A DNA stretch of 34,204 bases from a virus, in IMG/VR virus record IMGVR_UViG_3300018049_000075, positions 1 to 34,204 of that record, one strand, 5' to 3'. Shown here one piece after another: positions 3,286 to 34,204 of this stretch; within the stretch, counting starts at the first letter, position 1, and each line of letters opens with the position of its first letter. The notes under the pieces are model-generated. The model searched no databases and was not told where the DNA came from. It saw only the letters and a list, made by a program, of their open reading frames with translations. The translations under genes were made by a program, and so were the position numbers.

Positions 3286-3297
3286 ATTAATACTTAC

Positions 3298-8267: not shown

Positions 8268-8268
8268 T

Positions 8269-13886: not shown

Positions 13887-14404
13887 TCATACAAATATAT
13901 TAAAGTATATCTTAACTTCTTTACTTCCGGCACTGAATGTGTAGGTCCTATTCCGTTAATACATACTCCCTGTCCTGTAACATCTTCAACAAATTTATCT
14001 TCATCGTCGATGTACAAACCATCGCCTTGTTCTTGTAGAGATATTACAAGGTTTTTTCTGTAATAATCTCTATCCTTGTGCTTTCCTAAATAATCTCCTT
14101 GCTTATACCTATTTATTGCTATTTCAGCAAGTCTATAGTTTTCAAATTTAGGAGCAATATCTTTTAGAAACTCTTTAGTTTCTTTAGACATTTGCTTATG
14201 CCCACAAAAATCATATTTACAACTAGCACCGTCGATTGCTCTTCCCGGTGCCATTCTATCTCTATGAAACCACCTAGGTTCTTCTATAGATTCTGCTAGA
14301 GAACGCACTTGTAGTGCTATATCCTTTTCTAATATTTTAGATATCTCTAGTGTCTGTTCCATATTCTTGAATTGCGCCTTCGTATTTCTCATTAATTGCA
14401 GCAT
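13883..14404 (-). CDS. 2-oxoglutarate/Fe(II)-dependent oxygenase (prolyl-4-hydroxylase-like), 173 aa or shorter
   Basis: H-x-D at His109/Asp111 (GKHKDRD), a distal His156 (PTHSVP) and Arg165 nine residues later (LRYTL) form the complete Fe(II) and 2-oxoglutarate site of the prolyl-4-hydroxylase/AlkB-like superfamily. INRYKQGDYL before the first His and the LVISLQ strand after it fit the jelly-roll core. Such enzymes hydroxylate proteins, nucleic acids or small molecules, and they are common in marine T4-like phages, often among structural genes. The frame overlaps the preceding gene by 68 nt; an internal ATG at 14362 (residue 15) would cut the overlap to 26 nt and still keep every motif. Shine-Dalgarno evidence is weak for both, so the start is undecided. 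Its place between fibre genes suggests a virion-protein substrate, which is inference. Confidence 0.85.
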   Translation of the reverse strand: MLQLMRNTKAQFKNMEQTLEISKILEKDIALQVRSLAESIEEPRWFHRDRMAPGRAIDGASCKYDFCGHKQMSKETKEFLKDIAPKFENYRLAEIAINRYKQGDYLGKHKDRDYYRKNLVISLQEQGDGLYIDDEDKFVEDVTGQGVCINGIGPTHSVPEVKKLRYTLIYLYE

Positions 14405-14855: not shown

Positions 14856-16754
14856 TTAATCCCCAATCGTTAGCCAACTGCCATTACTTTGTTTTTGTAC
14901 TGTTTGCTTATATCTGTCATAAACTGTTGCATTACCACCGTTACCGTTTCTTGGTGCATTGTAAACACGTTCATTCCAAAACGCAACTTTTGTTCCTGTT
15001 GGGAACGATGAATAAGTTGACTGAACATTTGCAAGAGTTGTTGCACCTGCCCAGTAAATATCACTTTGTGCAAAAATAGCATCTACATAACCTTTTGTTG
15101 CTGCATGGTTAATTTGAGTTGGAGAAGCATGTAGTGTTAAGTACCCACTTAGTGTTCCGCCTGCTATTTTTAAAAACGAATCATGATGGAACCCATCTAA
15201 TTTATCTGCATTATCTGCTTGAAATGCACTGTCTGCTCTACCAGCAGTAACAGCCTTTCCGTTAACACGTAAAAAGTCTGTTGAATCTAATCCATCTAGT
15301 TGACCTGAATTTGTAGCATAATCTGCTAGTGCAGAATCAACTGCTTTACCATTAACAAGTAAAAAGTCTGTTGCTTGTAACCCATCTAGTGTATCAGCAT
15401 CTAGTCCTGTGCCAGCACCCTGATTACCTTCGTGCCATACAGTGTTTCCTCTATATGTTAATCCATTAGCAACGTCATTGTTTACAAGTTTCATTAACTC
15501 AACAACACTACTACCTGTTGAATTATGTGTCCAACGGAATGCGTTATAGTCATTATTTAAAGTTTGAAACTCTAAACGTGCATCTGTGTCACCAACACCT
15601 GCATTATGATATTTGATAGTTGCATTATCTGTATTTGGTGCAAATACTAATCCTTCACCGTTATCACTAAAAGTAACATTACCGGTCATTGTTCCGCCGG
15701 AACGTTGTAAGAATGCTGTACTATCTAATCCGTCTAATAACTCTGAGTCAACTGCTTTAGCATTTACTTTTAAGAAGTCACCGTGCTGGTAGCCATCAAG
15801 TTTATCTGCATCTAGGCCGCTTCCAGGTCCTTGATTTCCTGCATGCCAAACTGTGTTACCTAAGTAAGTTAATCCTAGTTGTACTGCACCTGGATTAATT
15901 TTTAATGTTGTTGCGGTTCCTGCTTTAAAAACTGTTTCGTCAGTTGATCTAGTTTTAATTTCTAACTTGGCGTCAGCATCAAAACCTTTAATTGTTTGGT
16001 CACCACCGACCCAATTAACGCCTGTTGCTTCGTTATTAAATGTAAATTCGCCTGTTAACGCTGTGCTTACATCACTGCGTAAAAACTGTGTACTATCTAA
16101 ATCATCTAATTTTTCTGCATTAGATGCTGTACCCCAGTATCTATGAGCAGAACTTGTTACGCCCGATGCACTTGCACTGTTTATTAGTGTTGTTCCTGAA
16201 CGTATATCTGAATATCCTGTTATAGGATTAATAGCATTATCAAGAGTAAACGTATCTGTACTAATAATAAAAATTACATCGTTGTTACTGTATGCTTGAA
16301 TAATAGAATGTGTATTTCCTACAGTATCAACAACTTCAGCACTAACCATTTTTGTAATGCCTGTGCCAGCTTTTTCAGGACCAATTAATTCATGAGATGT
16401 ACCGTTGTAAGCATATAACTGTCCTTTGTCAGTATCCCACCAAAAATCGCCTAAAACTTGACCTGACGGCTCAGTTGTGTTAGTAGTTGTTACTCCTAAC
16501 TTTCTCCATGTAGTTCCGTCAAATACTCTAATTTTTTTAGATGTAGTATCGTACCAAAGTTGTCCGCTTAGTGCTTTAGTTGGTGCGTTTCCGCCACTAA
16601 AATTTTCAAGCAAATAAAGGAAGTTTTCGTTTTGTATTTCACCATAGCCGGCATAGTTTTTTCCCACCAACTGTATGTCAGTAGTTCTATCAACTGTGCC
16701 CTCTTCTACAGTTGTTAAAATCGATCTATCGTATCTGTTTATAGTATATGCCAT
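14856..16754 (-). CDS. Tail fibre-like protein with LDG repeats, 632 aa
   Basis: The N-terminal module of about 240 residues is shared with the other three fibre-like proteins: NENFLYLLENFS, GQLWYD, GDFWWDT and QLYAYNG. From residue 225 on there are six copies of a phage fibre repeat around x-L-D-G-x-x-x-x-x-F-L, for example ADKLDGYQHGDFL near residue 313, interleaved with GNTVWHAGNQ-type and SGGTMTGNVTF-type units. These are typical of T4 gp37-like fibres and usually form long trimeric shafts. The last 90 residues, from YVDAIFAQSDIYWAG, are distinct and end in a Trp-containing tip-like region. It is probably a host-recognition fibre. The ATG follows AAGG, and a late-promoter octamer lies 24 bases upstream. 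Confidence 0.85.
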   Translation of the reverse strand: MAYTINRYDRSILTTVEEGTVDRTTDIQLVGKNYAGYGEIQNENFLYLLENFSGGNAPTKALSGQLWYDTTSKKIRVFDGTTWRKLGVTTTNTTEPSGQVLGDFWWDTDKGQLYAYNGTSHELIGPEKAGTGITKMVSAEVVDTVGNTHSIIQAYSNNDVIFIISTDTFTLDNAINPITGYSDIRSGTTLINSASASGVTSSAHRYWGTASNAEKLDDLDSTQFLRSDVSTALTGEFTFNNEATGVNWVGGDQTIKGFDADAKLEIKTRSTDETVFKAGTATTLKINPGAVQLGLTYLGNTVWHAGNQGPGSGLDADKLDGYQHGDFLKVNAKAVDSELLDGLDSTAFLQRSGGTMTGNVTFSDNGEGLVFAPNTDNATIKYHNAGVGDTDARLEFQTLNNDYNAFRWTHNSTGSSVVELMKLVNNDVANGLTYRGNTVWHEGNQGAGTGLDADTLDGLQATDFLLVNGKAVDSALADYATNSGQLDGLDSTDFLRVNGKAVTAGRADSAFQADNADKLDGFHHDSFLKIAGGTLSGYLTLHASPTQINHAATKGYVDAIFAQSDIYWAGATTLANVQSTYSSFPTGTKVAFWNERVYNAPRNGNGGNATVYDRYKQTVQKQSNGSWLTIGD

Positions 16755-16798: not shown

Positions 16799-18658
16799 TT
16801 ACACTGTACTTACCCAAGCCCAAGCCCCGCCTTGTACTTCAAATGTCATAACTGTTCGTGTCGGTGTAAAGTTTGCAGTACCACTTACTGGATCAAAGTT
16901 CACGTCTTGAACTACTGATTCTGCACTTGAATCTTCTGCAATTACACTTAAATAACTCTTGTTCATTGCTCCTTGTACGTCAATTCCTGTAACAGATACG
17001 TTACTATATGACACTGTTGCAATTTTTGCTAGTGTTCCGTTTTGTTTTGCTGCTGCTGGCGAAATACTTTCTAGTACTGCCTTAACATCATCATACGGGT
17101 TACCAGCCGACGGTAATACAAATCCAGTAGCATCCATTGTTAATACAACAGGCTCTGAACTTAGTTGTATATCAACGTATTCTTTTGTTGCTGCATCTTG
17201 CGGATTAACTGGATCAGTAACGTCTGTAATTCTACTATTACTAACTGTAATATTACCTGCAGGGTTAATAATTAAACCTGTTCCTACAGTTGAAATAGTG
17301 TTGCCATCAATGCTTACATTGTCTACGTTTAACTGTACAAGTGTACCAATACTGCTTAGTCCATTTGCTGTAGCAACTGTTGGACCTAATTCTGTTCTGC
17401 TTAAAACTAGCTGATCATTAATTCTAAATTCTTTACCAAGTGGTAAATTAACATTTTCGCTAATGTCTAGTGACGATTGTGTATTATCCCAAATAATTGA
17501 TTTATCGCTATCGGTTGACTTTAAAATAAGTCCTGCGCCATCAAGCCCTGCATCGTCGCTTGCTGTTACACCGCCCGATATGTTTAATTCAATGTTTTTA
17601 TCTTCAACTTGAATATTTGCAACATTAACATATGTAGCATTACCGTTAACAGTTAAATCACCATCAATAACAGCACTTCCTGTAGCGTGTAATGTTCCAG
17701 TAATGTCAAGCGTATACTGAGGATTTGTTTGATATATACCTAATCTACTGTACTGAGCATTAACAAATAAAGGTGTAGTAAACTGGTTACCAGTTCTTGT
17801 TCTAAGTTGTATATTAGTATTACTTTGTTGTGTTTCTAATGTTGTAGTACTACCTACAATTTTTAAAACACCGTACTCAGTATCGCCAATACCTACACTT
17901 AAACCTGCGCTGTTCTTAATTCTTATGCTACCTGTAGTAACACCATTAGCGCCAGTTGGTAAAAAGTCTGCACTAGTAAATGAGTTGCCGTCGGCGTCTA
18001 CAAGAGATCTTGCATCTGCTGCTGTTCCTTGATACCAAAAAGCATCATCTACAAAATTAAAACCTTTTTTGATTAATTGTCTTGCTGGAAATACAACATC
18101 ATTTGGATCATCTGGATAACCTGGAATTTTATTGTCGCCGCTTAAACGAAATTCTTCTTTAGTAATAATACCAAATAATGTTCCGCCCATCCATATCTTA
18201 AGAATAACACGCTCACGTGCTGAAATATCAATTACTGATGCAACTTCAAAACCTGTTTGTCCTTGCCCTGCATCGTAGTCTGGACCAACTAATACTAAAT
18301 CTGTACCATCAAAGAAGTACATTTTGTTATTTTCGTTATCAATCCAAATATCACCAGCAACCATACTTGGTTGTGAATTACTTACAATAGGTCCGCCGGC
18401 TGTTCTAAATGAATTGCCGTCATATAATTTTAATCTTTGATCGCTAGTATCATACCAAAGTTGTCCAACTAGAGGATTACCTGGGGCAGCGGTATTAGCA
18501 AAGTTCTCAACCATCTTAATAAAGTTTTCGTTGACACTTTCGCCAAAGCCCTTGTAGTTTCTTCCAACTAACGTAATATCGGTTGTAGTAGTATCTATCT
18601 GGCCGTCTGCTAATTCGACTAGTAGTTCGCCGTCAGTTTTGTTTAACTTGTAACTCAT
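16799..18658 (-). CDS. Tail fibre-like protein, 619 aa
   Basis: It carries the shared N-terminal module in a more diverged form: NENFIKMVENFA, GQLWYDT, then GDIWIDN-x-x-NKMYFFDG and LVGP. The central region is beta-rich with typical fibre signatures, namely YTLDITGTLHATGSAVIDGDLTVNGN near residue 320 and later repeats of the form S-I-D-G-N-T-I, then a NPQDAATKEYVD segment near 490 that recurs in phage fibre shafts. The C-terminal 120 residues are a separate beta domain ending GGAWAWVSTV. The start ATG overlaps the stop of the 676-aa gene by one base (TAATG), with GGAGG eleven bases upstream. Together with the 676- and 632-aa proteins it probably contributes to a multi-protein fibre or baseplate rim. 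Confidence 0.82.
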   Translation of the reverse strand: MSYKLNKTDGELLVELADGQIDTTTTDITLVGRNYKGFGESVNENFIKMVENFANTAAPGNPLVGQLWYDTSDQRLKLYDGNSFRTAGGPIVSNSQPSMVAGDIWIDNENNKMYFFDGTDLVLVGPDYDAGQGQTGFEVASVIDISARERVILKIWMGGTLFGIITKEEFRLSGDNKIPGYPDDPNDVVFPARQLIKKGFNFVDDAFWYQGTAADARSLVDADGNSFTSADFLPTGANGVTTGSIRIKNSAGLSVGIGDTEYGVLKIVGSTTTLETQQSNTNIQLRTRTGNQFTTPLFVNAQYSRLGIYQTNPQYTLDITGTLHATGSAVIDGDLTVNGNATYVNVANIQVEDKNIELNISGGVTASDDAGLDGAGLILKSTDSDKSIIWDNTQSSLDISENVNLPLGKEFRINDQLVLSRTELGPTVATANGLSSIGTLVQLNVDNVSIDGNTISTVGTGLIINPAGNITVSNSRITDVTDPVNPQDAATKEYVDIQLSSEPVVLTMDATGFVLPSAGNPYDDVKAVLESISPAAAKQNGTLAKIATVSYSNVSVTGIDVQGAMNKSYLSVIAEDSSAESVVQDVNFDPVSGTANFTPTRTVMTFEVQGGAWAWVSTV

Positions 18659-20688
18659 TAGGTTATCGTCCTCCCAGTATAGATAATGTAATTAAGTGTT
18701 AGTGTTGGGTTCATTGCATTAATAGGTTGTCCTACATCGTCTTCACTAATAATAGCACCACTATTTGGAAGTGCTTGTCCGTTACCTAACCCTGTTGGAG
18801 CATCATATACAATCGCTTCGTTATCTCTAGGTGTACCACTAACGTCACGTATTGCAAAGTACTGGTCACCGGAGTCACCACTTAAATTGTGCTTGTGCTC
18901 TGGTAAATTTTCTACATTAATAGTTTTTGTTTCCGAACCGCCAATTTGTCCAATACCGTCTGCGTAGTCTGCTGTTACAGTATTTGCACTTAGACCGCCA
19001 ATGTTATCTGCACCTAGTGGCAATCTGCCTCTCATATCAGGTACTTTAAAGAATCCACTTGTTACTGTAGTTCTTGCACCAAATGCGTAACCAATTGCTT
19101 GGAATAAAACTGTGTATTCTGAAATTCTGTATTCTGAACCATCACATAACAACCAACCAGTTGGTGCAGAAGTACCTGCATATGGAAGTAACACACCTGG
19201 TGGGTTTACCGGAACAGCACTTAACAACGTTCTTCTTGAAGTTCTGTATAGTCCTTGGTTACCTGTAGTTCTGTTAATTAAAATTTCATCATCAATTTGT
19301 GTAACGTTTGTAAGTTCTTTTGAAGAAATAATTGCGTTACTAATTTCTGTATTAAATATTTTTAGTGTGCCGCCAGTTTGTCCGTCAAATACAACGTCAT
19401 CTGCTGTTACGTCACCACTAATTCTAAATGTACTACCTGATGTTAGTTTGTTAGCACTACCAGCAACGCCCGAAACTGTACCGTTTACGTTACCAGTCAA
19501 GTTACCGACAAACGTAGTAGCATAAATGTTTTGCCATTTAGATGCTGCTGCACCTAAATCTCTTGTGTTGTTACCATCTGGAATAGTGTTTGCTAGTGTA
19601 GTAACGTCATTTACTTGTAACTCTCCGCCAATATTAACACTTTTTGCAACGCCAACGCCGCCTTTAGTTATTAAACTACCTGTGCTAATTGTAGAGCTTT
19701 CTGTAGTACCATTAATAAACAATGAAGAATTAGTTTGTATATTACCTACAACATCTAATGCTTCGTCTGGTGCTTGCGTGTTTACACCAATACGTTGTGA
19801 AGCATCAACTCTTAATACTGTTCTAGTTCTACCTTGGCTTCTAGTTCTTAAGTCAATGTTTGAACCTTCAATGTTTTGTTGAATAATACCTGCCTGACCT
19901 TCAACTGCAACGTTTAGTGCAGCGTCAGTACCAATAGTAACACCTGTATTGTTTTGTACGTTTAAAGGAAATAGTGTTGTACTAGTGACATCACTTCTTA
20001 AGAAGTTACCTGCTGGAACTGTTGCATTGTTTACTACAAGATTTTCTGCTTTTTCAGCAGTACCGTAATATTTTGCAACGCCGTTGCCAGTAATATTTCT
20101 TGTACTTAGATTAAAGCCAGGTTTTAAGCCAGCTTCAAAACCAGGAATAGTAGTTTTAGGACTAAATGCACTTGTGCTAATTAGTGCAACTGGTTGAGCA
20201 TTTACTTCAACTTGTACTACAGTGTATTCTGCATTGTCTGTACCAGTAACATTTAATGGTGTAACACCTGTTGAAAGACCATCGCTAAACGTAGGTCCAA
20301 CTAATACCCAACCTGAACCTGAGTTTAAGTAAAGTTGTTGGTTGTCTGTGTCAACCCAAAGGTCGCCTCGTTGAGAACTTGTTACATTTGGTTCTGATGC
20401 TCCCTTATTAAGTCCACCTGCTGGCACCCATTGAGTACCGTCATATACTTTAAGTTGCTCTCCACTTGGTGTAGTATCGTACCAAAGCTGACCTTCAGTA
20501 GGTCTTGCTGGCTCTGTAGCACTTGCAAAGTTTTCTAATAAGTGTAAAAGGTTAGTTGCTACAATTTTACCGTATGAAGTAGTATTTCTTCCTGGAAACT
20601 GTAGTGTAGTTTCCGTATTAATTGTATTATCTTCAACAGTAATTGTACCGTTGTTTGCTTGGTCTGTGTAAGGAATAGTATATGCCAT
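18658..20688 (-). CDS. Tail fibre-like protein with phage tail-collar domain, 676 aa
   Basis: The N-terminal module is shared with the other three fibre-like proteins (LLHLLENFA, GQLWYDT, GDLWVDT, QLYLNSG, LVGP). A beta-rich shaft with VGNIQTNSSLFINGT-type repeats follows. From about residue 495 it has a classic phage tail-collar domain: LLPYAGTSAPTGWLLCDG near 500-515, then F-K-V-P-D-M-R-G-R-L-P-L-G, with LPEHKHNLSGD near residue 595. This is the domain of T4 gp12-type short tail fibres and related collar proteins, where histidines bind metal along the trimer axis. It is therefore the best candidate for a short tail fibre or baseplate pin. The ATG is three bases after the preceding stop, with GAGGTG as ribosome site. 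Confidence 0.88.
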   Translation of the reverse strand: MAYTIPYTDQANNGTITVEDNTINTETTLQFPGRNTTSYGKIVATNLLHLLENFASATEPARPTEGQLWYDTTPSGEQLKVYDGTQWVPAGGLNKGASEPNVTSSQRGDLWVDTDNQQLYLNSGSGWVLVGPTFSDGLSTGVTPLNVTGTDNAEYTVVQVEVNAQPVALISTSAFSPKTTIPGFEAGLKPGFNLSTRNITGNGVAKYYGTAEKAENLVVNNATVPAGNFLRSDVTSTTLFPLNVQNNTGVTIGTDAALNVAVEGQAGIIQQNIEGSNIDLRTRSQGRTRTVLRVDASQRIGVNTQAPDEALDVVGNIQTNSSLFINGTTESSTISTGSLITKGGVGVAKSVNIGGELQVNDVTTLANTIPDGNNTRDLGAAASKWQNIYATTFVGNLTGNVNGTVSGVAGSANKLTSGSTFRISGDVTADDVVFDGQTGGTLKIFNTEISNAIISSKELTNVTQIDDEILINRTTGNQGLYRTSRRTLLSAVPVNPPGVLLPYAGTSAPTGWLLCDGSEYRISEYTVLFQAIGYAFGARTTVTSGFFKVPDMRGRLPLGADNIGGLSANTVTADYADGIGQIGGSETKTINVENLPEHKHNLSGDSGDQYFAIRDVSGTPRDNEAIVYDAPTGLGNGQALPNSGAIISEDDVGQPINAMNPTLTLNYIIYTGRTIT

Positions 20689-21325: not shown

Positions 21326-21333
21326 TATTTATC
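21326..21333 (-). promoter_or_regulatory. T4-type late promoter GATAAATA
   Basis: GATAAATA on the minus strand lies 19 bases before the ATG of the 204-aa gene. The TAA stop of the giant gene is contained in it (CGA-TAA-ATA), the same stop-in-promoter arrangement seen at 11856-11863. Confidence 0.6.
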
Positions 21334-24300
21334 GTGGTAACTCAGTTGTCTTCGCTTGTAAGAACTTAGCAATGTCATTTTCTGATTTAGATAACGCAAT
21401 GCCCGGTTCTGACCATAAAGTACCAATCCTTTTAACGATTGTTACCTGTGTTCCAGCCGGTGGAGGCGATGTTAAACGTACATACGCACCCACGTTTTTG
21501 TTTACTGCAAACTCTGCTTCTACTGTAATGTCGCCTTCTGGACTATCTTGCGCATCGTAATTGTAAACACTTATTGGTGATTTACGCAATCTACGTCCTG
21601 CAACAAATACTTCAATGTCTTGTGCTTCCCAATACTCTAATGGAATACTTGTAAAGTCTAATACTGTGCCCGTTCCTGCTGGAATGCTTGTAGCAATAAA
21701 CTCTGTTCCAATAGCATTGTTTGGTGAACCATAATTTGTAAATGTTGTTGTGCCCTGAGAAGCAATAACATAGCCTCTACCCGGAACAATTTCACTTACT
21801 GGTATCTCTGCTTGCTCTTTATACCATCCTGTTGCAGTTCTTGGGTTTGGTATTGGAGCATACGGTAATAAAATTTGTACATAAATCACTGCGCCTGGTA
21901 CAACAACACTAGTTTGCGCTCTATCAATTGGTACTGATGTTGCAGGATTTACAACTACTAGGTCATAAGCACCTACAGGCAACAACGGAGTAATAAACAA
22001 TACTTCTGTATCACTTACGTATGTACTGCTGTTATAAACAACATTCATTATGCCGTTACCTGGTGTTAATACTTCTGCTGTTCCGCCTTGTGTTGTACTT
22101 ACTGCAATAGCAACTTCGTTTGCTGCTGCACTACTATCGAGTGTTGATGCTTTTACTACATCAACTACATAGTAATCTGTATCAGGTAGTAATCCACCAA
22201 ATGGAGTTCCTGTAAATCTTATAACTTTGCCATCAATTAGAGTTTTGTTCCAACTATTTGGTTGGAAGTAAAACGGTGGTTTTACTCTAATATAAGAACT
22301 TGTTAAAATATCATTTGCTGGTAAAGTTACTGTTGGTTCGGTATCTCCTACAAGAACGTTAACATTAGTTTCAAATTCTGTACCAATAATAGTTGTCAAC
22401 TGTCCGCCTAATGGGAAAGCAGTGTTATTGTTAAAGTCGTATGTAAACTTATCTACTGTAACGCCTGCGCTATCCTCATATATAGTTGATGCTATACTGT
22501 AACCACTACTTGTAACCGTGACAGTTTCTTCTTCGTCTTTGTACGGAACAGTTGTATCAACATTACCAGAAACAAAAGTTGTTCCTGCTTCGTATGAGGT
22601 TTTAATACTAGTTCCTAATGTTCCTCTGCGGAGTTGTTTTAATTCATTGCCGTCTTTAACAAAGTATTCAATACGTTCTCCGTTGATGAATATAACACCT
22701 GGATATTTTGCATCAAATGCTGGGCTAGGCAAATTAGTTGCATCTACAACTTTAATAATTTTATCGTAATACAATAATTCTTCAGCAAGTTCATAACTTT
22801 CTTCTAGACGCTTGTAATGTGTTCTGTTTAGAATGTCTTTAAATTGTCTCCAACCAAACTGATCTACAACAACACCGTTTGCAAAATGTATAAGTTCAAT
22901 TACATCATCTTCAGCAGGTTGTTGAAGTAATTTCACAGTTAGTTTGTTGGTTGTTAACGAGTAATCAACACTAGGCATTAACAGTTGTCCATTTTGTATT
23001 ACCCAAACAAACTCTGCAGATAACGCAGGTGATCTTAAATCAAACAGTCCACGCTGCCATCTTCTAAATGCATAGTAATCTTCGGTGCCTACTTCTAATT
23101 CTGTTTTTTCAGTAACTTGTATTTTTTGACGTTCAATGCCCTGACTATCATGATTACTAAACTGATACACTGTAATAATATCGTTATCATTGTAAGCAGA
23201 AGTTAGATATATTGTTCCAGGTGTTCTTTGGAAATCATTATTATTATCATAGTAACCTAAATTGTATTCTGCATCACTAATGATGTAAACTTCAAGTTTA
23301 TCACCCGCTTCGCCAATACCTAATTCAAGTGTAACTGTACTACCTGCTTGACCCGATGGCGGCAATGTGCTATCATATGCACTTGCACCTTCAAATGTCC
23401 ATTCTTGCAAGTAAGTTAATCTTCTTCCATTCAGATAAACTTCAACATCATATGCGTTAACACTTGCAATAGGTACCTGAGTTAAGTCTAACTGATATTG
23501 TCTAGTAGATGTTACATCAAATGTTTCATTGTAACCAGCATGTAATACTTTGTCATTAACTTTAACAAGCATATTTGTTCTTAATGGTTCTTGCTCAAAA
23601 GGTGCTTGACTTAGTGCAAAGTTTGTAGTACTACCATCTGCTACAATAGAATCAATAGTAACTTGACTATATCCTACATTTGTTAGTCCTTCTTCTGCAA
23701 TAAGAACTTTAATGTTTGCATCTGTAAACGGAGGTGACGGTAATTTAACAATAAAGTTACCTGGATATGCATACGTTTCGTCTGCTTCTAGTAAAGATAC
23801 ATTTACTACCTTACCGTTCACTGTAACAAATGCTTCTGCACTATCTTGGTATCTTGCATTTGAAAGGAATTCAACTGTAGTGCCGTCGCCAGTATATGTG
23901 TCAATATCTAATATATTTGAAGCACTCATCCCTACTGAAATAATGTTTATTCTTTGTCCTAAGGTTGGTGCGGTATCAAATGTAACTGTTTCACTGTTAT
24001 AGTCAATTACATAATCATCACTTGTTAAAATAGTTGATCCCACTTTAACAAATAAGTTTTCTTTCTTAATTGGAGAAGCACCAATACTATAAGTTCTTGT
24101 TGCACCATTGCCAATATAGTTTCTTGATTCTATTTGTGAAGATCCTACAGTAGGTCTTTCGTAAACTGTAATATCAAGAGTGTCAAGAACTTGTCCTGGT
24201 ACAACTTCTTCTGGACCTTTTGATGTAGTATGTGTTACAAATCCGTCACCGTCTACAGTAATATCTTCTGATCTTAAACCTGTAGCAGTTTGATATTGTA

Positions 24301-27300
24301 AATTGCCGCCTTCTAGTGCAGTATCATATACATCAGGATCAGGAAGGAATGCACCGTCTGAAGTAATTTTTCTAATAATAAATGTGTCGCCATCATTACC
24401 AGTAATATCATAGTCATTAATGTTAATAGTTGTTTGTACGCCATCGCCTACAATAGGTAACATTAATGCATTGTCGTTTGTTTGATCCGGTGTTCCGTAA
24501 TTAGGATCGTCAATTCGTACTCCGTTTTTATAAACGTTATAAGTGATTCCATCTTCTAATGGCTTAGGTTCTCCTAAACTATCTATTAAGTTAAATTCAT
24601 TAGTTGATCCGTCAAGTGTTACAACATAATCTTCATATGTTGTATCAAATACGTCCCAGGCATCGTCCATCCAGTTTCCAGTGTCCCAACCATTTTGTCC
24701 ACCAAACTCAAATCCTCTAACTTGTACGCCGCCATAGTCAACACCATCCATTAACTGACCTAGTGTTTTACCAAACTGCTCTGTTGTAGGTGCATACGCA
24801 AGATTAATTCTATCCTGTGCATTTAATAATGCAATATCTTTTGAATATTCTACAACAATGTTAGTTCCGCTTATTGGAGAATCAGTAAATGTAATTCTAC
24901 CATAATATCTATCATATCCCTTTGTTTGATCAAGAACATTTTCGTATGTGTAGTTTCCGCCAAGTACTTCATCACCGTCAACATAAACTGTAACTTTGTC
25001 AGTTCTTAAGTTCATTGGCCATAACAAATTAAACACGTTTTTATTACCGGTGCCTGCAAATTCTTCAGTCGTTGCAAGATCAATAAATTCGTATGTTCCA
25101 GATACTCTGTCAAACTTAATTGCAGTTGTTAATGTTCTAACAACAGTATTGTTAATAACTGCATTTGCCTTTACTTCAGATCCTCCAGCAGTGATACTGC
25201 CGTTAAAACTAATTCTCGGTGCCGACAAATATCCTGACCCTGGATTAGTTACTGTTATGCTAGTAACTTTACCGCCTGTACCAATAGATGCTACTGCTTT
25301 AGCACCTGATCCACCGCCACCGCTAATAATTACTTGAGGTGCATTAGTGTATCCTGAACCGGCGTCTGCGATGTTAATATGAGAAACTTCAAACCCTGCA
25401 TTGTCTGCCCAGTTTTTATAAGGATAAACATCAATATTTGCATCAGTATTAACTAACTGACTATCAATTACTTTAATACGTTGCGGAGTTATTTCGTCTG
25501 AGTTTTCAATATATCTAGGAGGTAAATCAAAGTCCGAAATCATTGACTGAGAATTATCAGTATTTTCATAACTACTTAAATATTCTCTAATTTTAGACTT
25601 GTAAGGTTTAACTTCTTTAATATATTCCTCATATGACGGTAAGTTATCATTTTGGAAATTAAGTTTCTGTGTTAATTCGCCAACATTGTGTTTTGCTTTT
25701 ATAAACGATGTTTTAAATGCCCAGTCTACATAACTTTGTTCTGCAAACACATAACGTAAACTTGCAAAGAACAACTTATTATATTCAACTGCTAAGTCAT
25801 CTGTAAATAACTTATCTCTAATTGTTTCTAATACAATTCGTGATTCAGTGCTAGGAATACCGTCAAACTGTTTAATATCAAAACTTGTAGTATCGTAACC
25901 TACAAGATTTTTTGTAGGATCGTACAATGCTTCTGCAATTTGTATTGTACCATTTTGTCTACCAATAGTTTTGTAATTTACAGTATAATCAACACCAGTT
26001 TGTGTATCAATTTTTTCTAGTAATAGCCAACCGCCAGAACCAACGTTATTGATTTTTACAACGTCACCGTATGCATTATCAAGTCCTTCAAGTTCGTATG
26101 AATAATCAATTACTTGATCAATTTGTGTAAATTGACTGTAACCTTCTTCCCACCAATCTTGATAATACCAATAATTGTTTACATTATAACTTTGGCTTCC
26201 AACTCTTACCCAAGTGCTGTTTACAACATCTCTTTCATATAGCGACCATCTGTCAGCAATAGTTTCGTCTGCTATTACAAGAACAGTATATTTTCTTACT
26301 GTTAGTCTTGTATTACTATCATAATACTTGCCGCCTTTAGTAACAGTTACATTAGTAATTCTACCTTGTGCATCTATTTCTGTTTTAACTTCTGCATCTT
26401 TACCTGCACCAAAAATTTCAACTGTAGGAGGTCTTAAATAACCTCTACCAGTATCAGTAATATCAACTCGAGTAATTACACCGTCAGTAATAACTGGAGT
26501 TAAAACTGCTTGTCTTGCTTTTGCAACACCAACAAATTGTAAATCACTATACCTATCAACAGTTCTATCGTATACATTTGATGTTAGTAATGGCTGTGCC
26601 TCTTTCTTTGTTAGATTTGATATATCCTTTTCGTCAACAATTAGTTCAGTTGCTAAAACATTATTAATTCTATCTACAACTTGTTTAAATGCTTCAATTC
26701 TATTAACAAACCAACCTTGACGTGGCTTGTTTAAAATACCGTATTTTTCCTTTGCACTAAGTTCTGGTGCAGGCACACTTCTATTTTGTGTGTCAAAACC
26801 AATTAAACTATCAAACCATTTTCTTTCAATGTCTGTACTTGGTCTGCTCGAAGCAAGTCCTTCACTAAGAATTTGATATTGATTATGAATATTCTGTGTT
26901 TGATTATCAATTGTCCAATACTGCACACTAAATGCAATGTCGTTTCCTTTAACTAAACTATCACAGTTATATAATGCAAACTGTGTAGGACTAATAAATG
27001 ATACAAATCGATATCCTTGTGCTGCTGGATCTGCAATAAGATCTCTAATGTTTACTGCACTTAAACTTCTTCCTTCAATGCTAGGAACAGTTGATTTGTT
27101 TGCAACCCAGAAATAATAGTAAACACTAAATGTTCTTGTTGCTTCGTCATAAACACGTTTAGTAGAATATGCATCGTCACCGTATAATGATGTTCCAGTA
27201 ATGCCTTGGGCAAGTCCTTTATCTGTACCAGACTTTTCATCCCATTCACTTGGCAAATATTTTGACTCTACCCACTCGTAAATATCAATTGAATTAGTAG

Positions 27301-30300
27301 TTGAGAATAATTTATTCCAGTTATTTGCACTGTAAATTACAGAATCTTGATAAGGATTAATAAATTTAGCATTTGTTAAATCCCACCATAGTTTACCAAC
27401 TTGCTCTGACGCCCAGGCATTTGTTACATCTAAATTTTGTCCGCTAGATGCAAATGAATATGTTGCTGGATCGTAATATGTTTTAAACGAAAGTTCTTGT
27501 TCTGCTGGTCCAGGGACTTTTCCTTGTAATACATCAACATAATCTAAGTACTGTAATAGTTCATTAGTTTTTGTGTCATACATAATAACACGTTTAATTT
27601 TATCAACATCAACAGTTTCTTTACCAACACGTAGTTCATTCCAAATACTGCCTTCAGTTCTACGGAAGTCTACAACAGTACCTTGTCTAGCACCGCTATA
27701 TTGTAATGACGGTAGGCCTGCATAAATGTGTCCATTATTTAATGTAATATTTCTACCAAAGAATCTTACACCACTATCGTCAAAATCAATAGTTTGTCCA
27801 TAAACTAGTGTATCACCAAGTCTTTCAAAAATTCTTACATTACCAGAATCTTCGTTAACAGTTCTAAATTTAGTAAACTCACTATCAAATGTAGTTCCGT
27901 CGCCAAACTGATCAAATGTTGTTTCAACAAACGCATCACCTTGACGACAACCCACTACTAACGTATTACCATCAAAGTCAATGTCAATACCAAACATTTC
28001 TGCACGTTGAGTGTCGGGACTACGTAATTCTTGTGATAGCGTAAATGATCCGCTAACTTGTTTGTAAATATAAACTTTACCTGTGTCTGTACCTAAGGCA
28101 TCATTGTACGGTTCTGATACAGCAATAAGAGTACCGTCTGGACTAATACTTACTTTATCTCCAAAACCATTTATATTATCAGGTGCTTGTATTTCTTGCG
28201 ACTTATAATAAAGTCCGTTTAAGTTTCTATATACAACTACTAAATTTGGTTGTGTATCGTTAACTACACTTGCAACAATCACTTCGCCGTTAGCACTTAT
28301 ATCAAAGCTCTTAGCAAATTCAAGCATATCAGTTTGATCAAGTAAAGTGTTTCCTGATAACGCTAAACCTGTATCATTAGGAATATAGCCTGTATAATCT
28401 CTTGGGTCTTCAATCTCTGTCCAGTTATTAGAATTAAATACTCCAGCACTCATATTAGTAATTGCTTGATACAATCTGTTGTTAAAAAATACAACATCAT
28501 CTTCGCTATAACTTCTTGTATTATCATAAGCACCTTTGTATTTCTTGTCAGTACTTAATTCCCAACCATACTGATAGTCACCTTCAGTACCGTTGTTTAC
28601 AATATAAAGTCTACCGTTATTTGTTAATGTGCCATTGCCTTCTTCTTTAATGAATAGTTTGTATAAATCATTAATTTTTGCAAAAGATAATTCTGCACCT
28701 AGTTTTGCATTGTCTTGTCTATCTGCAGAACTAAATGCTCCTAATTTTGCAAACTGTCCTACTCCTGTTCTTTGATAAACAGTATAATAACCTTCATTTG
28801 TAAGACCGCTTTCAGTTGTTCCAGCAGTAACTGGTAAATTAAACATTGTTTGCCAATCATTATTGGCTTCAGATGGAATATTTGCAGGACGAGCAATACC
28901 ATCAACTAATTCTTCTTGGTATACAAAGTATTCGCCTTCTAAAATTGTTTGTTCATCTGTAACAGGAATATCAGCAGATCTTGTTAATACAATCATTTTA
29001 CCAATGCCAGCTGCTGGTAATTCAAATGCTCGTGACTGTATTTGACCAAAAATACGACTTCCGGAACCTGGATCGTATAACGTATCTCCACTGCCGTCTG
29101 CTAAAAATTCAATTTCCCTGTTCTCGCCAAACAACGCACCAGCAGCCCATGTGCCTGATACATTCTTAACGTAAATTCTACCACTACTAATACCAGTTCG
29201 TTGATAGTGTGTAACTAATGCAGTACCTCTGTTAGTTACATCTCTAACTTCAATACCTGCTTTAGGTTCAATTGGTACATCATTAAGCGTTTTAGTAATG
29301 TCAAAATCAATGTAGCCGTCCCATACATCATAGATAGTATGTTTTTTGTTAATGTCATTTAGGTTTAGACCAATATCTTCAGGATTGTCAAATGGCAATT
29401 GATCAAGTGGTCTGTAAAAATCAATATCGTAAATTAAATCAGTTGGATCTTCTGTAGAAGTATCAAATTGCAAGAATGATGTTGCACTTTGATGTCTTGC
29501 TGTTACTTCCCAATAAATGTTATCATATTCAGCAGTAACATATCTTACAATGTCACCTGCTCTATAAACAGTGTTTGGTTCCCATTCAGATAATTCCCAC
29601 TGTGGCATTGGATTGTAAAATACATTAACAGTTGAATTATTAGTATTACCAGCAGCAACTACATTTAATACATCGCTTAATCCTTTTGGAACTCTTAGTA
29701 CAAACTGATTTGATAGTTGTTCTCCAATGACGCCACCTGGTCCAGGTTGGCCGTCATATGATAATTTTGTAAGTTCACTAAACAATTTGTTATTACTGTA
29801 AACTGCGTTTGTTGCGATTGCCTCAGACGGTTTAGTATCAAAAATTGAATACCAATCTCTATTAGGATCTGCTGTTCCATTAGGAACAATGTCAACATAT
29901 GCTAAACCGCGGCCTTCGTCAGAGTTAATTGTTCCTACATTGTAAGTGGTTCCTAAATCTAATTTCCAGTAACCACCCCAGAATGCTTCTGAATTGTTAA
30001 CAGTTTCTGCAGGAGCAACAGTTGTGTATTCACCAACAAACTCACCAATGCTAGTTGTTAAAGATCCGCTTAATCCAAATGTACCGTTTTGTCCTGAGAC
30101 ATAAATTGTTGCAGAGCCTTCAACTTCGTCCTCATATACATACTCAACATTACCAAATCCGCCAACTACTTCAACAACTTGTCCTACAAGGGGCACTGTA
30201 GTTGAACTTGGAACATAAAGTATGCTGTCAATTTTTGCAGCAATAGTAAAATTGCCAGTTAGATAATTGTTATTAATTAAACCAATATCTCCCGCAAATG

Positions 30301-33300
30301 GTTGTACTTCTGTATATTTTGCAACATCTTGGTTTGCATTTGTTATTAGATTCCATTTTAGTCTTAATGTATCACCTACACCCGAACCTTCGTACATGTC
30401 TGCAGGTGCTTTAACTACAATATGATCAACGTTGTTAATATTTGTAAATGGATAATTACCAGTTAGTAATACAGGAATCTTCTCATCAAAAGATTCTGTT
30501 AATCCTAAAGAAGTTAAAATCTCAGGAACACTATCGTTGCTACCAAATTGAATGTTTGCTTCTGCCCCTTCAATTGCAACTAAGGCTTTCCAAAGATTGT
30601 TTTGATATTTTACAATACTACCTTGTGCATAATCTTGTGTAGATACATAGTCACCTAAGAAAGTAGTTCTAACATTTGATGCATTAGGAGATCCTACTGC
30701 AAGATATCTTCCGTCAGCACTTAATGCAAGCGAAGATCCAAAACCTTCAAAGTCGTCTGCTTGATTATCATCAGGTTCTATAACATTTGATAATTTAAAC
30801 TTGCCTGCGCCACCGGCTCTAGTATAAACATATACTTTGCCATCTTCGTCATCTGGTGCACCTACTACTAAAACGTTATTAGCACTATTAGATGCAACAG
30901 CAATACCATAACTTGCGGCTTGCTCGCCAATTTCATTTGAAACAACATCGTGTTCTGCAAAAGAAGAAACTTGTTCAATTACTGCCCATCTATCATTTAC
31001 AGACTTGTCAACCCATAATTTAGTAATTCCTTCTGGAATAGATTGTACTAATGTGTTTGCACTTTCAAGATCTGAAACTCTTACATTAACAAGTTTAGTA
31101 ATTCTACCACTAATTGATGTATCAGTTGCTTCTGTAGTACGATCAATAGTAACAGTGTTACCTAAAATTTCTGTAACTTTATAAAATCCTTCTGCAAAGT
31201 TAGTTTCAGTAACACCAATAATGTCGCCTACAGAAATATCAATATCTGTAGTATTAAGATTTAACTTGCCGCCTTCTTCTACATCTTCAACAATGTAATC
31301 AGTTCTTATATGACTGTAAACATTCCAAGTTAATCCGTCATTACCTACCCAAATAGTATCGTTAAAATTACATGTAGAATAATCAATATTTAAAATACTG
31401 TCATAAGTTGATACAACAAAATCTACATCATCTCTATTTACAAATCCACTATTCTTTGTATACGTATCTTCTACATACTTTGATGGCCACGGAGCATGAT
31501 TGTATCCTGCTGGTTTTAAATAAGTCTCAAAAGGTTTAATTCTATAAACTAAATCTGTTTCTTGACCGGTAGTATTATTAACAAGTTCAATTGTTTGTGG
31601 CGACAAACGCATGTTTGCTTCGTCAATTAAATATTCAACTTCTTCAAATCCTTCAGAAGCACCATATTGTCCTGCTTTAACTGCCCATTCTTCAAAAAAT
31701 TCTAAACTATCTTTATCGCTACTACTTAATACATCAAACAATTTGCTTAATGCATTTTTAGTACCTTTGTCTTGAATCATACCTTGGTAGAACTTATACT
31801 GACTTACATCGTCATTAATAATGTTAGCAAGATAGTCGCGGTTTTGATAACCAATTAAATGCTGTGCAAATTTTTGTTGTTCTAAATCAAAATTGTCTGT
31901 GTCTAAATCGTAAAAGTCAGCAAACTGATTAGTCTTATATTCAAAGTTAGGTATTAACCCCATTGAAGGCTTCTCGTCTAGTCTAACCCAATCTGAATCA
32001 TTAAATACTTCTACACCTGGAACTTTGTTTCTTGCACTATAATAAAACTCTTTATATTTTACAAGATCGCCAATTGCATAATCTTTCCAAGATTCCCATT
32101 CAGTTATTTTTGCATTATCAAAAATAAATCCTGGAATATTTAAACTTCCGTCCCAATCACCTGTTCTATAACCTAATACTTTAATTCTTTCTTGTCTATA
32201 ACCAGGCTCTTGGTCAAATATAATATCGTTAAACACTGTCTTATTATCAATTAATACAGCATGTTCTTTTTGTACTAATGCCAAACGTACAGCAAAGATT
32301 CCGTCTTCAGTATTCTTAGGTCTTAAAATAAATTCTGCTGGATTCTCTCTAGTTAAACTTGCAAACTCTGATTCTAATTTTTTACCGTCTGCTTTAAACA
32401 AACTGTAGCCATAGAATGTATCAAATACATCATCTACAACAGCATATTCGCTAATAAATTTTAATTGTGATGCTGCTGGACTTAGTGTAATAACTGCGCC
32501 GGCGCCCCAGTTTTGTGTGGTCCAGAACATAAATTCTTTTGCACTGGTCTTCCAATCGCTAACGTATTGTTCATTTGTATCATAATAGTCAAAAACAAAT
32601 CCTTGATCAACAAGATAATCGCTATAACCTAAAATAAAATCAACTACTTCTTGAATAGTTTCATACACTGTTCCGTAAGGAACTTTTACAGGTGTCTTAT
32701 CAAATGAAGTTCTAAAAAATGCATCTCTACCACCAGTTAATGGTACGCTAGGAATCTTTGCAAATTTTGTTGAATCAAAGTCTGTTCCGCTAGTATGTGC
32801 TTCTGTAACTCTGTAATAACTGTTTTGATATTCAACAATACTATCTTGGGTATATGCCTTTCTTGAATCCCATAATAAAAAGTTTGCTGATATTCCGCCA
32901 ACGTTTATATAAGGGTCGTTTGTAATTTCATATGGTTTATGATAGTAAAAATATGGACGTTGTCCGTTATAACCTCTAACAACAAAACCGTATTCTTGTT
33001 TCTCTACAATAACACCACTATAATCAATAGTTGTTACAGGTGTACTTGTGTTTAAGAATATCTGATAGTTCTCTTCAGGAACAAAAACATTGCCTTGGTT
33101 AGTTGGAGTTCTACTGTCAAGAATTAATTTAAATTTATCTTTATTAGTAAATCCTGCAATCTTAAATGCCATTTGGTTATTAATAGATTTTACAGAATCA
33201 ACATATAAATTATAACTAGTTGATACACTAGATGCCATATAATCATAAATGTAATTTACTAGACCGCTAGTATATGTTCTAGATTTATCTGTAACATTAT

Positions 33301-34204
33301 TTGGAAATACTAAGTTATCTAATCTTAATTGCGTTTGATCATTATACACTAACTGCCCAGCAATATTTCTAGACTGTCTTGATCTATCCCAGGCTGTACC
33401 TAATACATAATTAGGCTGATTAATAAACAGCGAAGTAAGTAATGCAAATGGATATTCTGAACTACGTCTCCAAGCATTCTCGACAGGACCATGATCACCG
33501 TAGACAAAATTAAAATCAAGTTCAGTAGTATCGTAATTTCTAATATAACCACTAATTACAGGACTTACAAGATTACCGCTTTCGTCCACTGGTAAATGAC
33601 TTGTTAAAAATGGTCTTAAAAACTGCTCGTTAACTGTTACAGGTTGATCAGGAATTCTAATAATACCACTTTCAATATCTTCCCACATTAACAAGTTGTT
33701 GCTAGTGTACGGTGCTTCGCCGTACTGCTCATCCCACCAAGTTGGTTTAATTGTAAAACCTAACATTTCCCATGGATGTGTATGAGGACGATCAGTGTCG
33801 TATGCCCATTTGTAAACTGCTCTCCAATATCCAGTTACATTGTTTCCGCTAGGATCTGACATTCCTTGATGGTTGAATGTAAATGTATTTGTTCTTTCAT
33901 ATGCAGGATTAGCAGTGTAATCTTCATCTACTAATTGTAGCCACTGAGCAAAATCACTAAGCATTGTTTCGTCAATTTGCTCTTTAGTTAAAACTGTATT
34001 TCTTCCTTCGCTAGGAATAAAATCAAACAAGTTAAACAAATCTGTATCGTAGCGAACTTTAATGTTGTTAAATATTCTCTTCTCTAATTCTAAAATTAAA
34101 TCATCACGGAAATCTCCAAAAGCAATCATTATGCTTCCGTCGTGTCCTTGTATAACTGTTTGTGGTTCAAGGTACGTGTCATCTACATACATTGTAGGTT
34201 CGTA
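21329..34204 (-). CDS. Giant modular virion protein, at least 4291 codons, N-terminus beyond window edge
   Basis: One uninterrupted frame reaches the window edge; four further codons (Y-E-P-T) precede the first ATG at 34192, so the true start is probably outside. Residue numbers count from that ATG. FG-GAP/beta-propeller-like blades lie near 1095-1175 (VVGAPDDEDGKVYVY, LAVGSPNA) and 1960-2120 (IAVSEP, LVVGCRQGD). Five CBM5/12-like segments with Y-x-x-G/D-D/S-x-V-x-Y-x-x-x-x-Y lie near 441, 699, 1181, 1531 and 1884. GSGY-type beta repeats are at about 2570-2630 and 2937-3010. From about 3400 to 3850 there are several DGTT-type fibre repeats with V-x-V-N-G, and near 4130-4170 a GRGYVIASQGTTTFTNYG unit. 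There is no signal peptide or membrane segment within the visible part. It is probably a baseplate or tail-tip component contacting surface polysaccharide; T4 gp7 or gp10 would be far smaller. Confidence 0.82.
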   Translation of the reverse strand, partial: YEPTMYVDDTYLEPQTVIQGHDGSIMIAFGDFRDDLILELEKRIFNNIKVRYDTDLFNLFDFIPSEGRNTVLTKEQIDETMLSDFAQWLQLVDEDYTANPAYERTNTFTFNHQGMSDPSGNNVTGYWRAVYKWAYDTDRPHTHPWEMLGFTIKPTWWDEQYGEAPYTSNNLLMWEDIESGIIRIPDQPVTVNEQFLRPFLTSHLPVDESGNLVSPVISGYIRNYDTTELDFNFVYGDHGPVENAWRRSSEYPFALLTSLFINQPNYVLGTAWDRSRQSRNIAGQLVYNDQTQLRLDNLVFPNNVTDKSRTYTSGLVNYIYDYMASSVSTSYNLYVDSVKSINNQMAFKIAGFTNKDKFKLILDSRTPTNQGNVFVPEENYQIFLNTSTPVTTIDYSGVIVEKQEYGFVVRGYNGQRPYFYYHKPYEITNDPYINVGGISANFLLWDSRKAYTQDSIVEYQNSYYRVTEAHTSGTDFDSTKFAKIPSVPLTGGRDAFFRTSFDKTPVKVPYGTVYETIQEVVDFILGYSDYLVDQGFVFDYYDTNEQYVSDWKTSAKEFMFWTTQNWGAGAVITLSPAASQLKFISEYAVVDDVFDTFYGYSLFKADGKKLESEFASLTRENPAEFILRPKNTEDGIFAVRLALVQKEHAVLIDNKTVFNDIIFDQEPGYRQERIKVLGYRTGDWDGSLNIPGFIFDNAKITEWESWKDYAIGDLVKYKEFYYSARNKVPGVEVFNDSDWVRLDEKPSMGLIPNFEYKTNQFADFYDLDTDNFDLEQQKFAQHLIGYQNRDYLANIINDDVSQYKFYQGMIQDKGTKNALSKLFDVLSSSDKDSLEFFEEWAVKAGQYGASEGFEEVEYLIDEANMRLSPQTIELVNNTTGQETDLVYRIKPFETYLKPAGYNHAPWPSKYVEDTYTKNSGFVNRDDVDFVVSTYDSILNIDYSTCNFNDTIWVGNDGLTWNVYSHIRTDYIVEDVEEGGKLNLNTTDIDISVGDIIGVTETNFAEGFYKVTEILGNTVTIDRTTEATDTSISGRITKLVNVRVSDLESANTLVQSIPEGITKLWVDKSVNDRWAVIEQVSSFAEHDVVSNEIGEQAASYGIAVASNSANNVLVVGAPDDEDGKVYVYTRAGGAGKFKLSNVIEPDDNQADDFEGFGSSLALSADGRYLAVGSPNASNVRTTFLGDYVSTQDYAQGSIVKYQNNLWKALVAIEGAEANIQFGSNDSVPEILTSLGLTESFDEKIPVLLTGNYPFTNINNVDHIVVKAPADMYEGSGVGDTLRLKWNLITNANQDVAKYTEVQPFAGDIGLINNNYLTGNFTIAAKIDSILYVPSSTTVPLVGQVVEVVGGFGNVEYVYEDEVEGSATIYVSGQNGTFGLSGSLTTSIGEFVGEYTTVAPAETVNNSEAFWGGYWKLDLGTTYNVGTINSDEGRGLAYVDIVPNGTADPNRDWYSIFDTKPSEAIATNAVYSNNKLFSELTKLSYDGQPGPGGVIGEQLSNQFVLRVPKGLSDVLNVVAAGNTNNSTVNVFYNPMPQWELSEWEPNTVYRAGDIVRYVTAEYDNIYWEVTARHQSATSFLQFDTSTEDPTDLIYDIDFYRPLDQLPFDNPEDIGLNLNDINKKHTIYDVWDGYIDFDITKTLNDVPIEPKAGIEVRDVTNRGTALVTHYQRTGISSGRIYVKNVSGTWAAGALFGENREIEFLADGSGDTLYDPGSGSRIFGQIQSRAFELPAAGIGKMIVLTRSADIPVTDEQTILEGEYFVYQEELVDGIARPANIPSEANNDWQTMFNLPVTAGTTESGLTNEGYYTVYQRTGVGQFAKLGAFSSADRQDNAKLGAELSFAKINDLYKLFIKEEGNGTLTNNGRLYIVNNGTEGDYQYGWELSTDKKYKGAYDNTRSYSEDDVVFFNNRLYQAITNMSAGVFNSNNWTEIEDPRDYTGYIPNDTGLALSGNTLLDQTDMLEFAKSFDISANGEVIVASVVNDTQPNLVVVYRNLNGLYYKSQEIQAPDNINGFGDKVSISPDGTLIAVSEPYNDALGTDTGKVYIYKQVSGSFTLSQELRSPDTQRAEMFGIDIDFDGNTLVVGCRQGDAFVETTFDQFGDGTTFDSEFTKFRTVNEDSGNVRIFERLGDTLVYGQTIDFDDSGVRFFGRNITLNNGHIYAGLPSLQYSGARQGTVVDFRRTEGSIWNELRVGKETVDVDKIKRVIMYDTKTNELLQYLDYVDVLQGKVPGPAEQELSFKTYYDPATYSFASSGQNLDVTNAWASEQVGKLWWDLTNAKFINPYQDSVIYSANNWNKLFSTTNSIDIYEWVESKYLPSEWDEKSGTDKGLAQGITGTSLYGDDAYSTKRVYDEATRTFSVYYYFWVANKSTVPSIEGRSLSAVNIRDLIADPAAQGYRFVSFISPTQFALYNCDSLVKGNDIAFSVQYWTIDNQTQNIHNQYQILSEGLASSRPSTDIERKWFDSLIGFDTQNRSVPAPELSAKEKYGILNKPRQGWFVNRIEAFKQVVDRINNVLATELIVDEKDISNLTKKEAQPLLTSNVYDRTVDRYSDLQFVGVAKARQAVLTPVITDGVITRVDITDTGRGYLRPPTVEIFGAGKDAEVKTEIDAQGRITNVTVTKGGKYYDSNTRLTVRKYTVLVIADETIADRWSLYERDVVNSTWVRVGSQSYNVNNYWYYQDWWEEGYSQFTQIDQVIDYSYELEGLDNAYGDVVKINNVGSGGWLLLEKIDTQTGVDYTVNYKTIGRQNGTIQIAEALYDPTKNLVGYDTTSFDIKQFDGIPSTESRIVLETIRDKLFTDDLAVEYNKLFFASLRYVFAEQSYVDWAFKTSFIKAKHNVGELTQKLNFQNDNLPSYEEYIKEVKPYKSKIREYLSSYENTDNSQSMISDFDLPPRYIENSDEITPQRIKVIDSQLVNTDANIDVYPYKNWADNAGFEVSHINIADAGSGYTNAPQVIISGGGGSGAKAVASIGTGGKVTSITVTNPGSGYLSAPRISFNGSITAGGSEVKANAVINNTVVRTLTTAIKFDRVSGTYEFIDLATTEEFAGTGNKNVFNLLWPMNLRTDKVTVYVDGDEVLGGNYTYENVLDQTKGYDRYYGRITFTDSPISGTNIVVEYSKDIALLNAQDRINLAYAPTTEQFGKTLGQLMDGVDYGGVQVRGFEFGGQNGWDTGNWMDDAWDVFDTTYEDYVVTLDGSTNEFNLIDSLGEPKPLEDGITYNVYKNGVRIDDPNYGTPDQTNDNALMLPIVGDGVQTTININDYDITGNDGDTFIIRKITSDGAFLPDPDVYDTALEGGNLQYQTATGLRSEDITVDGDGFVTHTTSKGPEEVVPGQVLDTLDITVYERPTVGSSQIESRNYIGNGATRTYSIGASPIKKENLFVKVGSTILTSDDYVIDYNSETVTFDTAPTLGQRINIISVGMSASNILDIDTYTGDGTTVEFLSNARYQDSAEAFVTVNGKVVNVSLLEADETYAYPGNFIVKLPSPPFTDANIKVLIAEEGLTNVGYSQVTIDSIVADGSTTNFALSQAPFEQEPLRTNMLVKVNDKVLHAGYNETFDVTSTRQYQLDLTQVPIASVNAYDVEVYLNGRRLTYLQEWTFEGASAYDSTLPPSGQAGSTVTLELGIGEAGDKLEVYIISDAEYNLGYYDNNNDFQRTPGTIYLTSAYNDNDIITVYQFSNHDSQGIERQKIQVTEKTELEVGTEDYYAFRRWQRGLFDLRSPALSAEFVWVIQNGQLLMPSVDYSLTTNKLTVKLLQQPAEDDVIELIHFANGVVVDQFGWRQFKDILNRTHYKRLEESYELAEELLYYDKIIKVVDATNLPSPAFDAKYPGVIFINGERIEYFVKDGNELKQLRRGTLGTSIKTSYEAGTTFVSGNVDTTVPYKDEEETVTVTSSGYSIASTIYEDSAGVTVDKFTYDFNNNTAFPLGGQLTTIIGTEFETNVNVLVGDTEPTVTLPANDILTSSYIRVKPPFYFQPNSWNKTLIDGKVIRFTGTPFGGLLPDTDYYVVDVVKASTLDSSAAANEVAIAVSTTQGGTAEVLTPGNGIMNVVYNSSTYVSDTEVLFITPLLPVGAYDLVVVNPATSVPIDRAQTSVVVPGAVIYVQILLPYAPIPNPRTATGWYKEQAEIPVSEIVPGRGYVIASQGTTTFTNYGSPNNAIGTEFIATSIPAGTGTVLDFTSIPLEYWEAQDIEVFVAGRRLRKSPISVYNYDAQDSPEGDITVEAEFAVNKNVGAYVRLTSPPPAGTQVTIVKRIGTLWSEPGIALSKSENDIAKFLQAKTTELPR

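Follow-up and report, generated by a model that had tools for sequence, protein, structure and literature searches.

A giant phage protein at the baseplate-wedge position with a predicted integrin-type propeller and CBM5/12-like modules in a variable slot

The IMG/VR virus record IMGVR_UViG_3300018049_000075 was analyzed over positions 1 to 34,204 (34,204 nucleotides, here called the window), and this report deals with a giant gene on its minus strand that runs past the window edge. Its product is probably a giant wedge-position baseplate protein of a marine jumbo T4-like myovirus with a built-in, likely host-contacting propeller head. That it is a baseplate-wedge protein of such a phage is very probable because of the gene order and the detection of homologues in virions by mass spectrometry. 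Giant baseplate proteins of this class are known but little understood, and the unusual part of this one is an integrin-like head in a lineage-specific slot, studded with modules resembling carbohydrate-binding modules (CBMs). An earlier reading from the letters alone (the sequence-only reading) had proposed a long multi-site surface binder; it was right about one giant modular chain, which is better described as a wedge protein that has a putative binding head of its own. It did not foresee that most of the giant is a conserved wedge chassis in the gp7 position, with the propeller inserted within.

The frame of the giant holds 4,291 codons without a stop, compared with about 341 stops expected by composition, and its GC content by codon position is 0.47/0.38/0.19. 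Because of this stop-free length and the strong codon-position bias, it is a real coding gene, and a chance or non-coding frame was rejected. The 5′ end lies beyond the window edge. The IMG/VR contig L004, which overlaps the giant gene with 99.98% identity over 12,100 bases, restores the start (MAFNNDQTEQPLPAG...) and adds 1,029 residues; the full protein thus has 5,320 amino acids (~595 kDa), 4,291 of them in the window, and at the same place in the record behind L004 the open frame spans 5,322 codons. All residue numbers given as full positions refer to this 5,320-residue protein, in which the window part is joined to the N-terminus from L004. An assembly artefact was rejected in view of three overlapping contigs and many relatives with frames of ~5,000 amino acids. 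The sequence-only reading had noted a single intact frame continuing past the edge and advised recovering the upstream sequence, both of which are borne out. Its claim of strong selection also stands; the absence of frameshifts, on which it was based, is weaker proof than the codon-position bias and the conservation of ~5,000-residue frames in many relatives.

Upstream of the start, L004 encodes a hub/lysozyme-like (gp5-like) protein, a gp25-like protein (phrog_261/43) and a gp6-like protein of 1,139 amino acids (phrog_10646/219). The giant follows directly after the gp25/gp6-like wedge genes, which is the gene order used to recognize the phrog_10938 family, and both the window part (E 1.3e-211) and the N-terminus from L004 (E 1.9e-159) match the profile of that family. 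Since it is preceded by gp5-like, gp25-like and gp6-like genes, it sits at the place of T4 gp7, whose gene likewise follows gene 6. The block of gp25, gp6 and giant is common to PA5oct, 121Q, RaK2, XaC1 and CBB, while in Atu_ph07, where the order is partly kept, the giant comes immediately after the gp6-like gene. Cyanophages share the block as well; their third gene encodes ~3,000 to 5,512 amino acids and goes under the name of baseplate wedge initiator or baseplate wedge subunit, and some records call it T4-like gp7. The giant is therefore, as had been claimed, far larger than the T4 baseplate proteins, although it is not exceptional, proteins of ~3,000-5,500 amino acids being common at this locus in jumbo phages and cyanophages. 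One scan of IMG/VR gave 251 related stretches, and scans of viral contigs with PA5oct and Atu_ph07 segments found no further relatives. Genes for gp23-type capsid proteins occur in four of the nine larger contigs of near relatives, which makes the phage a T4-like myovirus and probably one of the jumbo phages.

Homologues of the giant are present in purified virions, in line with its earlier designation as a virion gene. PA5oct gp355 was detected in virions by electrospray ionization tandem mass spectrometry (ESI-MS/MS). In phAPEC6, gp245 (381.88 kDa; homology by position and size) was found in virions with 17 unique peptides and is listed beside the baseplate wedge protein gp244 (PMC7247149). 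CBB_236 stands in a virion listing with the values 21 and 7.72, apparently peptides and percent coverage, beside the baseplate wedge protein CBB_237 (PMC5259590).

When full-length relatives are aligned, the protein falls approximately into an N-terminal chassis (full 1-1890), a slot (1890-3270), a C-terminal chassis (3270-4360) and a tail with fibre-type repeats. The chassis is common to marine and terrestrial jumbo phages (~25-30% identity, E to 1e-156); PA5oct gp355, 121Q gp582, CBB_236 and Atu_ph07 gp180, all of phrog_10938, have both of its halves and the same gene position. The slot differs between lineages: terrestrial members carry 271-386 residues (271-273 in the RaK2 group, 386 in PA5oct) or, in Atu_ph07, 1,599, whereas the marine clade carries ~1,285-1,380 residues with the predicted integrin-type propeller. 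Over the protein as a whole, terrestrial members have zero or one clear CBM-like module and marine members three to six. In BLAST searches of the marine slot against terrestrial giants, only a weak CBM-like match was obtained (E 0.006 to the PA5oct CBM), and no convincing likeness to the other slots. Identity to distant marine relatives is ~28% in the slot versus ~55% in the chassis. Compared with near relatives, 50-52% of the residues differ in the slot and 33-40% in the chassis, so that the slot diverges ~1.5 times faster, and third codon positions are the most changed in all three regions. Faster divergence is expected of a contact surface and thus fits a host-facing role of the slot.

For the slot, an AlphaFold2 model of full 2080-3260 was obtained with 37 sequences (predicted local distance difference test, pLDDT, 86; predicted template modelling score, pTM, 0.66), so that the structure prediction recommended earlier yielded a confidently predicted propeller. 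Foldseek and VIA-align 2 both rank integrin alpha-subunit propellers first, with a VIA Z of 32.6 to 7usm_A (root-mean-square deviation, rmsd, 3.0 over 355 residues, model 30-1141) and a Foldseek E-value of 2.4e-8 to 9t5z_A. The propeller blades suspected in the sequence-only reading are further supported by three stretches of Pfam FG-GAP_2 in the window protein (E 4e-11, above the cut-off). Judging from strand order and blade sequences, the propeller would have seven blades. Two of them would be interrupted between their second and third strands, blade 2 by ~630 residues and blade 6 by a smaller insertion, and CBM-like module 6 would separate blades 3 and 4. In integrins, the 2-3 and 4-1 loops form the ligand-binding face and the I-domains insert between blades 2 and 3; the large insertion of the giant is instead predicted inside blade 2. 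The giant shares the predicted fold and the FG-GAP_2 repeats with integrin alpha-subunits and bacterial or viral FG-GAP propellers, but has only ~16% identity to them and is located in a phage baseplate protein. It also differs in the DxDxDG calcium motif, a defining feature of integrin-type propellers, where several blades have it in the loop that joins strands 1 and 2 (PMC3192720). This motif is not conserved: a single DIDFDG in blade 6 is found in the phage of the window only, and five relatives have zero or one such motif. FG-GAP-like propellers as such are already known in viruses, a BFVD search having returned Caudovirales, a virion protein of cyanophage S-TIM5 and giant viruses.

Six CBM5/12-like sites lie at full 226, 1472, 1730, 2213, 2568 and 2920. 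The last five are in the window, as the sequence-only reading had counted, and the first lies upstream. Pfam CBM_5_12 (PF02839) matches four stretches of the window protein (E 4e-13), which as a whole reaches 49.6 bits against a curated cut-off of 26.2, single modules giving 20-30 bits. A module profile scores 46-68 bits at the six sites and at most 0.3 in 20 shuffled proteins; these scores are inflated because the profile was built from the same six modules, and relatives left out of the profile also score there. Most of the marine members scanned have the sites at 1472, 1730, 2213 and 2920. The one clear module of PA5oct, like that of Atu_ph07, corresponds to site 1472, and the module-profile scan detected no CBM-like module above noise in 121Q and RaK2. 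The key aromatic residues are 99-100% conserved in modules 2, 3, 4 and 6. Module 1 is inserted in a cupredoxin-like domain of the N-terminal chassis encoded in L004 (full 164-324; VIA Z 11.3, rmsd 2.3 over 100 residues to 2dv6_A). As a separate observation, the record behind L011 contains (79529-81073) a second large frame of 2,437 codons in which FG-GAP_2 repeats occur at least seven times, and CBM5/12 arrays are present in two frames of the same relative (1,868 and 2,615 codons).

By analogy with T4 gp7, six copies of the giant may each be fixed to a gp6-like dimer through the conserved chassis, and each copy would hold its large head outward at the baseplate rim. In the marine clade, this head would consist of the integrin-alpha-type propeller with blade 2 opened by ~630 residues, with further CBM-like modules at three chassis sites. 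Its role would most likely be to bind a polymer of the host surface weakly and multivalently at first contact, before or together with the four fibre proteins encoded nearby, and this binding may pass to the wedge as a contraction trigger. A binding head on a gp7-position protein would couple host contact directly to the wedge. T4 gp7 is among the wedge proteins that swivel in the hexagon-to-star change (PMC3004832), and a gp7-type protein anchors the spikes in XM1 (PMC10457771). The frame and its full length, the gene order, the family, the occurrence of homologues in virions and the anatomy of chassis and slot are observed, whereas copy number, particle location, binding and triggering we infer. 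The products of this locus rank with the largest phage proteins and are common in the sea. The combination of conserved chassis and variable slot makes their function testable, since first contact and host range may depend on the slot as well as on the tail fibres. The integrin-type propeller, here predicted as part of a baseplate protein, is in addition a useful case of fold reuse.

Several observations weigh against a host-contacting wedge protein and have to be set beside the alternatives. The virion mass spectrometry comes from homologues in other phages and none from the phage of the window, so that the virion proteomics called for earlier is answered in part, for the family (PA5oct, phAPEC6, CBB). 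Further, hhalign of N-terminal chassis profiles against T4 gp7 gave no match, a PDB sequence search with two chassis profiles found nothing significant and no solved relative, and a fold search with full 1-1200 listed only the cupredoxin-like domain and not gp7. The last search is uninformative on gp7 because the model is large and the match list was filled by one domain; the region compared with the core-bundle helix-turn-helix of gp7 (full 22-46 and 79-114) is partly helical with low pLDDT. Extreme N-terminal segments compared with the cyanophage giants by hhalign scored within the shuffled range, and hhalign of A3 against these giants gave no match. Together with the cupredoxin-like domain near the N-terminus, this leaves it quite possible, if somewhat short of an even chance, that jumbo phages came to use an unrelated scaffold instead of gp7, a replacement by position only. 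Against such a replacement, the locus still adjoins gp25 and gp6, and a chain of likeness leads to gp7 through a short segment: cyanophage giants match T4 gp7 residues 729-814 (hhalign 91% probability, E 1e-6), and a helical segment of the window protein resembles their FYxSKGT region with an hhalign score of 30.4 (E 7e-4), above the best of 150 column-permuted templates (25.4). This second step is one short segment and is suggestive at most, because the segment was picked after the motif had been seen. T4 gp7 itself shares with the giant the place after gp6 and the presumed gp6-dimer partnership, but has 1,032 amino acids and no detectable direct sequence similarity. The Kyanoviridae giants (P-TIM68, 4,307; P-SSM2, 5,195; S-H38, 5,512 amino acids) share locus, size class, a GSGY-like segment and the FY..KGT..LF motif; they have no family-level chassis similarity and, where searched, a YHYH domain in place of the FG-GAP and CBM modules.

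The CBM5/12-like folds may also be mere spacers. A reading of propeller and modules as structural spacers or fibre docking sites without host binding is credible, though on the doubtful side: beta-propellers are general scaffolds, the four fibre proteins with one common anchor domain encoded just downstream need docking sites, and modules 1 and 5 are poorly conserved. A host-facing role is, however, the better fit to the faster divergence of the slot and to the lineage-specific gain of modules, and other large frames of relatives likewise carry CBM-like arrays. A more far-reaching version of the host-contacting wedge protein, which we consider rather unlikely, is a fixed exchange slot between the chassis halves into which lineages load different heads, the marine one being an integrin-alpha-like propeller with CBM-bearing insertions in the 2-3/4-1 loops. 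If it were true, integrin-like lectin heads would be displayed on the virion as part of its contraction trigger, and first contact could be made without a separate receptor-binding protein. That the giant belongs to the head or neck is very improbable: PHROGs files phrog_10938 as 'head and packaging' and labels phrog_460, matched by one segment of the giant, as 'head closure Hc2', but the gene lies in the baseplate block, away from head genes, in every lineage examined, and the match to phrog_460 is confined to the Gly-rich GSGY segment, found also in the P-TIM68 baseplate protein.

The coordinates of all features are collected in Table 1.

Table 1. Features of the giant gene and the adjoining gene in the window (full, residue numbers of the 5,320-residue protein)
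Feature	Position	Strand	Evidence
Giant virion gene, baseplate-wedge position	21329..34204	-	Open frame; full length from L004
Second part of N-terminal chassis (full 1030-1890)	31622..34204	-	phrog_10938 E 1e-211; 25-30% identity to PA5oct, Atu_ph07, 121Q, CBB
CBM5/12-like module 2 (full 1472-1515)	32747..32878	-	Pfam, module profile, aromatic conservation
CBM5/12-like module 3 (full 1730-1773)	31973..32104	-	Module profile; aromatics nearly invariant in marine clade
Helical segment L-GY-R...FY...KGT...LF (full 1811-1872)	31676..31861	-	Weak profile likeness to cyanophage gp7-annotated FYxSKGT region
Variable slot, marine-clade module (full 1905-3230)	27602..31579	-	Divergence; no convincing match in terrestrial giants
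Predicted integrin-alpha-type beta-propeller, discontinuous (full 2103-3221)	27629..30985	-	Model pLDDT 86, VIA Z 32.6, Foldseek
Predicted ~630-residue insertion in blade 2: beta domains, CBM-like modules 4 and 5	28793..30682	-	Model strand order, blade sequences; boundaries approximate
CBM5/12-like module 4	30536..30667	-	Module profile, aromatic conservation
CBM5/12-like module 5, near relatives only	29459..29602	-	Module profile
CBM5/12-like module 6, predicted between blades 3 and 4	28406..28543	-	Module profile, model strand order
C-terminal conserved chassis (full 3270-4360)	24212..27484	-	24-34% identity to terrestrial giants
Gly-rich GSGY segment	25157..25402	-	phrog_460 E 1e-22
Fibre-type beta repeat 1	24842..25060	-	Homologous to other repeats
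Fibre-type beta repeat 2	23930..24118	-	Homologous to other repeats
Fibre-type beta repeat 3	23693..23896	-	Homologous to other repeats
Fibre-type beta repeat 4	23432..23647	-	Homologous to other repeats
Next gene, 204 amino acids	20692..21306	-	phrog_11259

Of the remaining parts of the chain, the fibre-type beta repeats named in the sequence-only reading were found as four homologous copies, while its GSGY repeats shrink to a short Gly-rich stretch around P0001 2940-3010; the GSGY-like motif has weak matches in cyanophage baseplate proteins. For the phrog_11259 gene that follows the giant, PA5oct has a 201-residue virion protein near the corresponding place.

Further downstream, the minus strand encodes four fibre proteins (11859-13388, 14856-16754, 16799-18658 and 18658-20688) with a common N-terminal anchor of ~120 residues (38-45% identity to the first) and differing C-terminal parts, one with a Collar domain. 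Between the fibre genes lies a 2OG-Fe(II) oxygenase-like gene (13883-14404, minus strand; below the curated cut-off), and near them several glycosyltransferase-like genes (6663-10369, minus strand), one with two similar internal halves. A gene at 1-609 (minus strand) has a PP-loop-like SGGADS motif and no Pfam match; with the glycosyltransferase-like genes it possibly forms a cluster for modifying the virion or glycans. Four radical-SAM genes, one with a SPASM-like match, stand in a row downstream of the fibre genes (581-5432, minus strand); in Atu_ph07, three such genes lie downstream of the region with the giant and the fibres.

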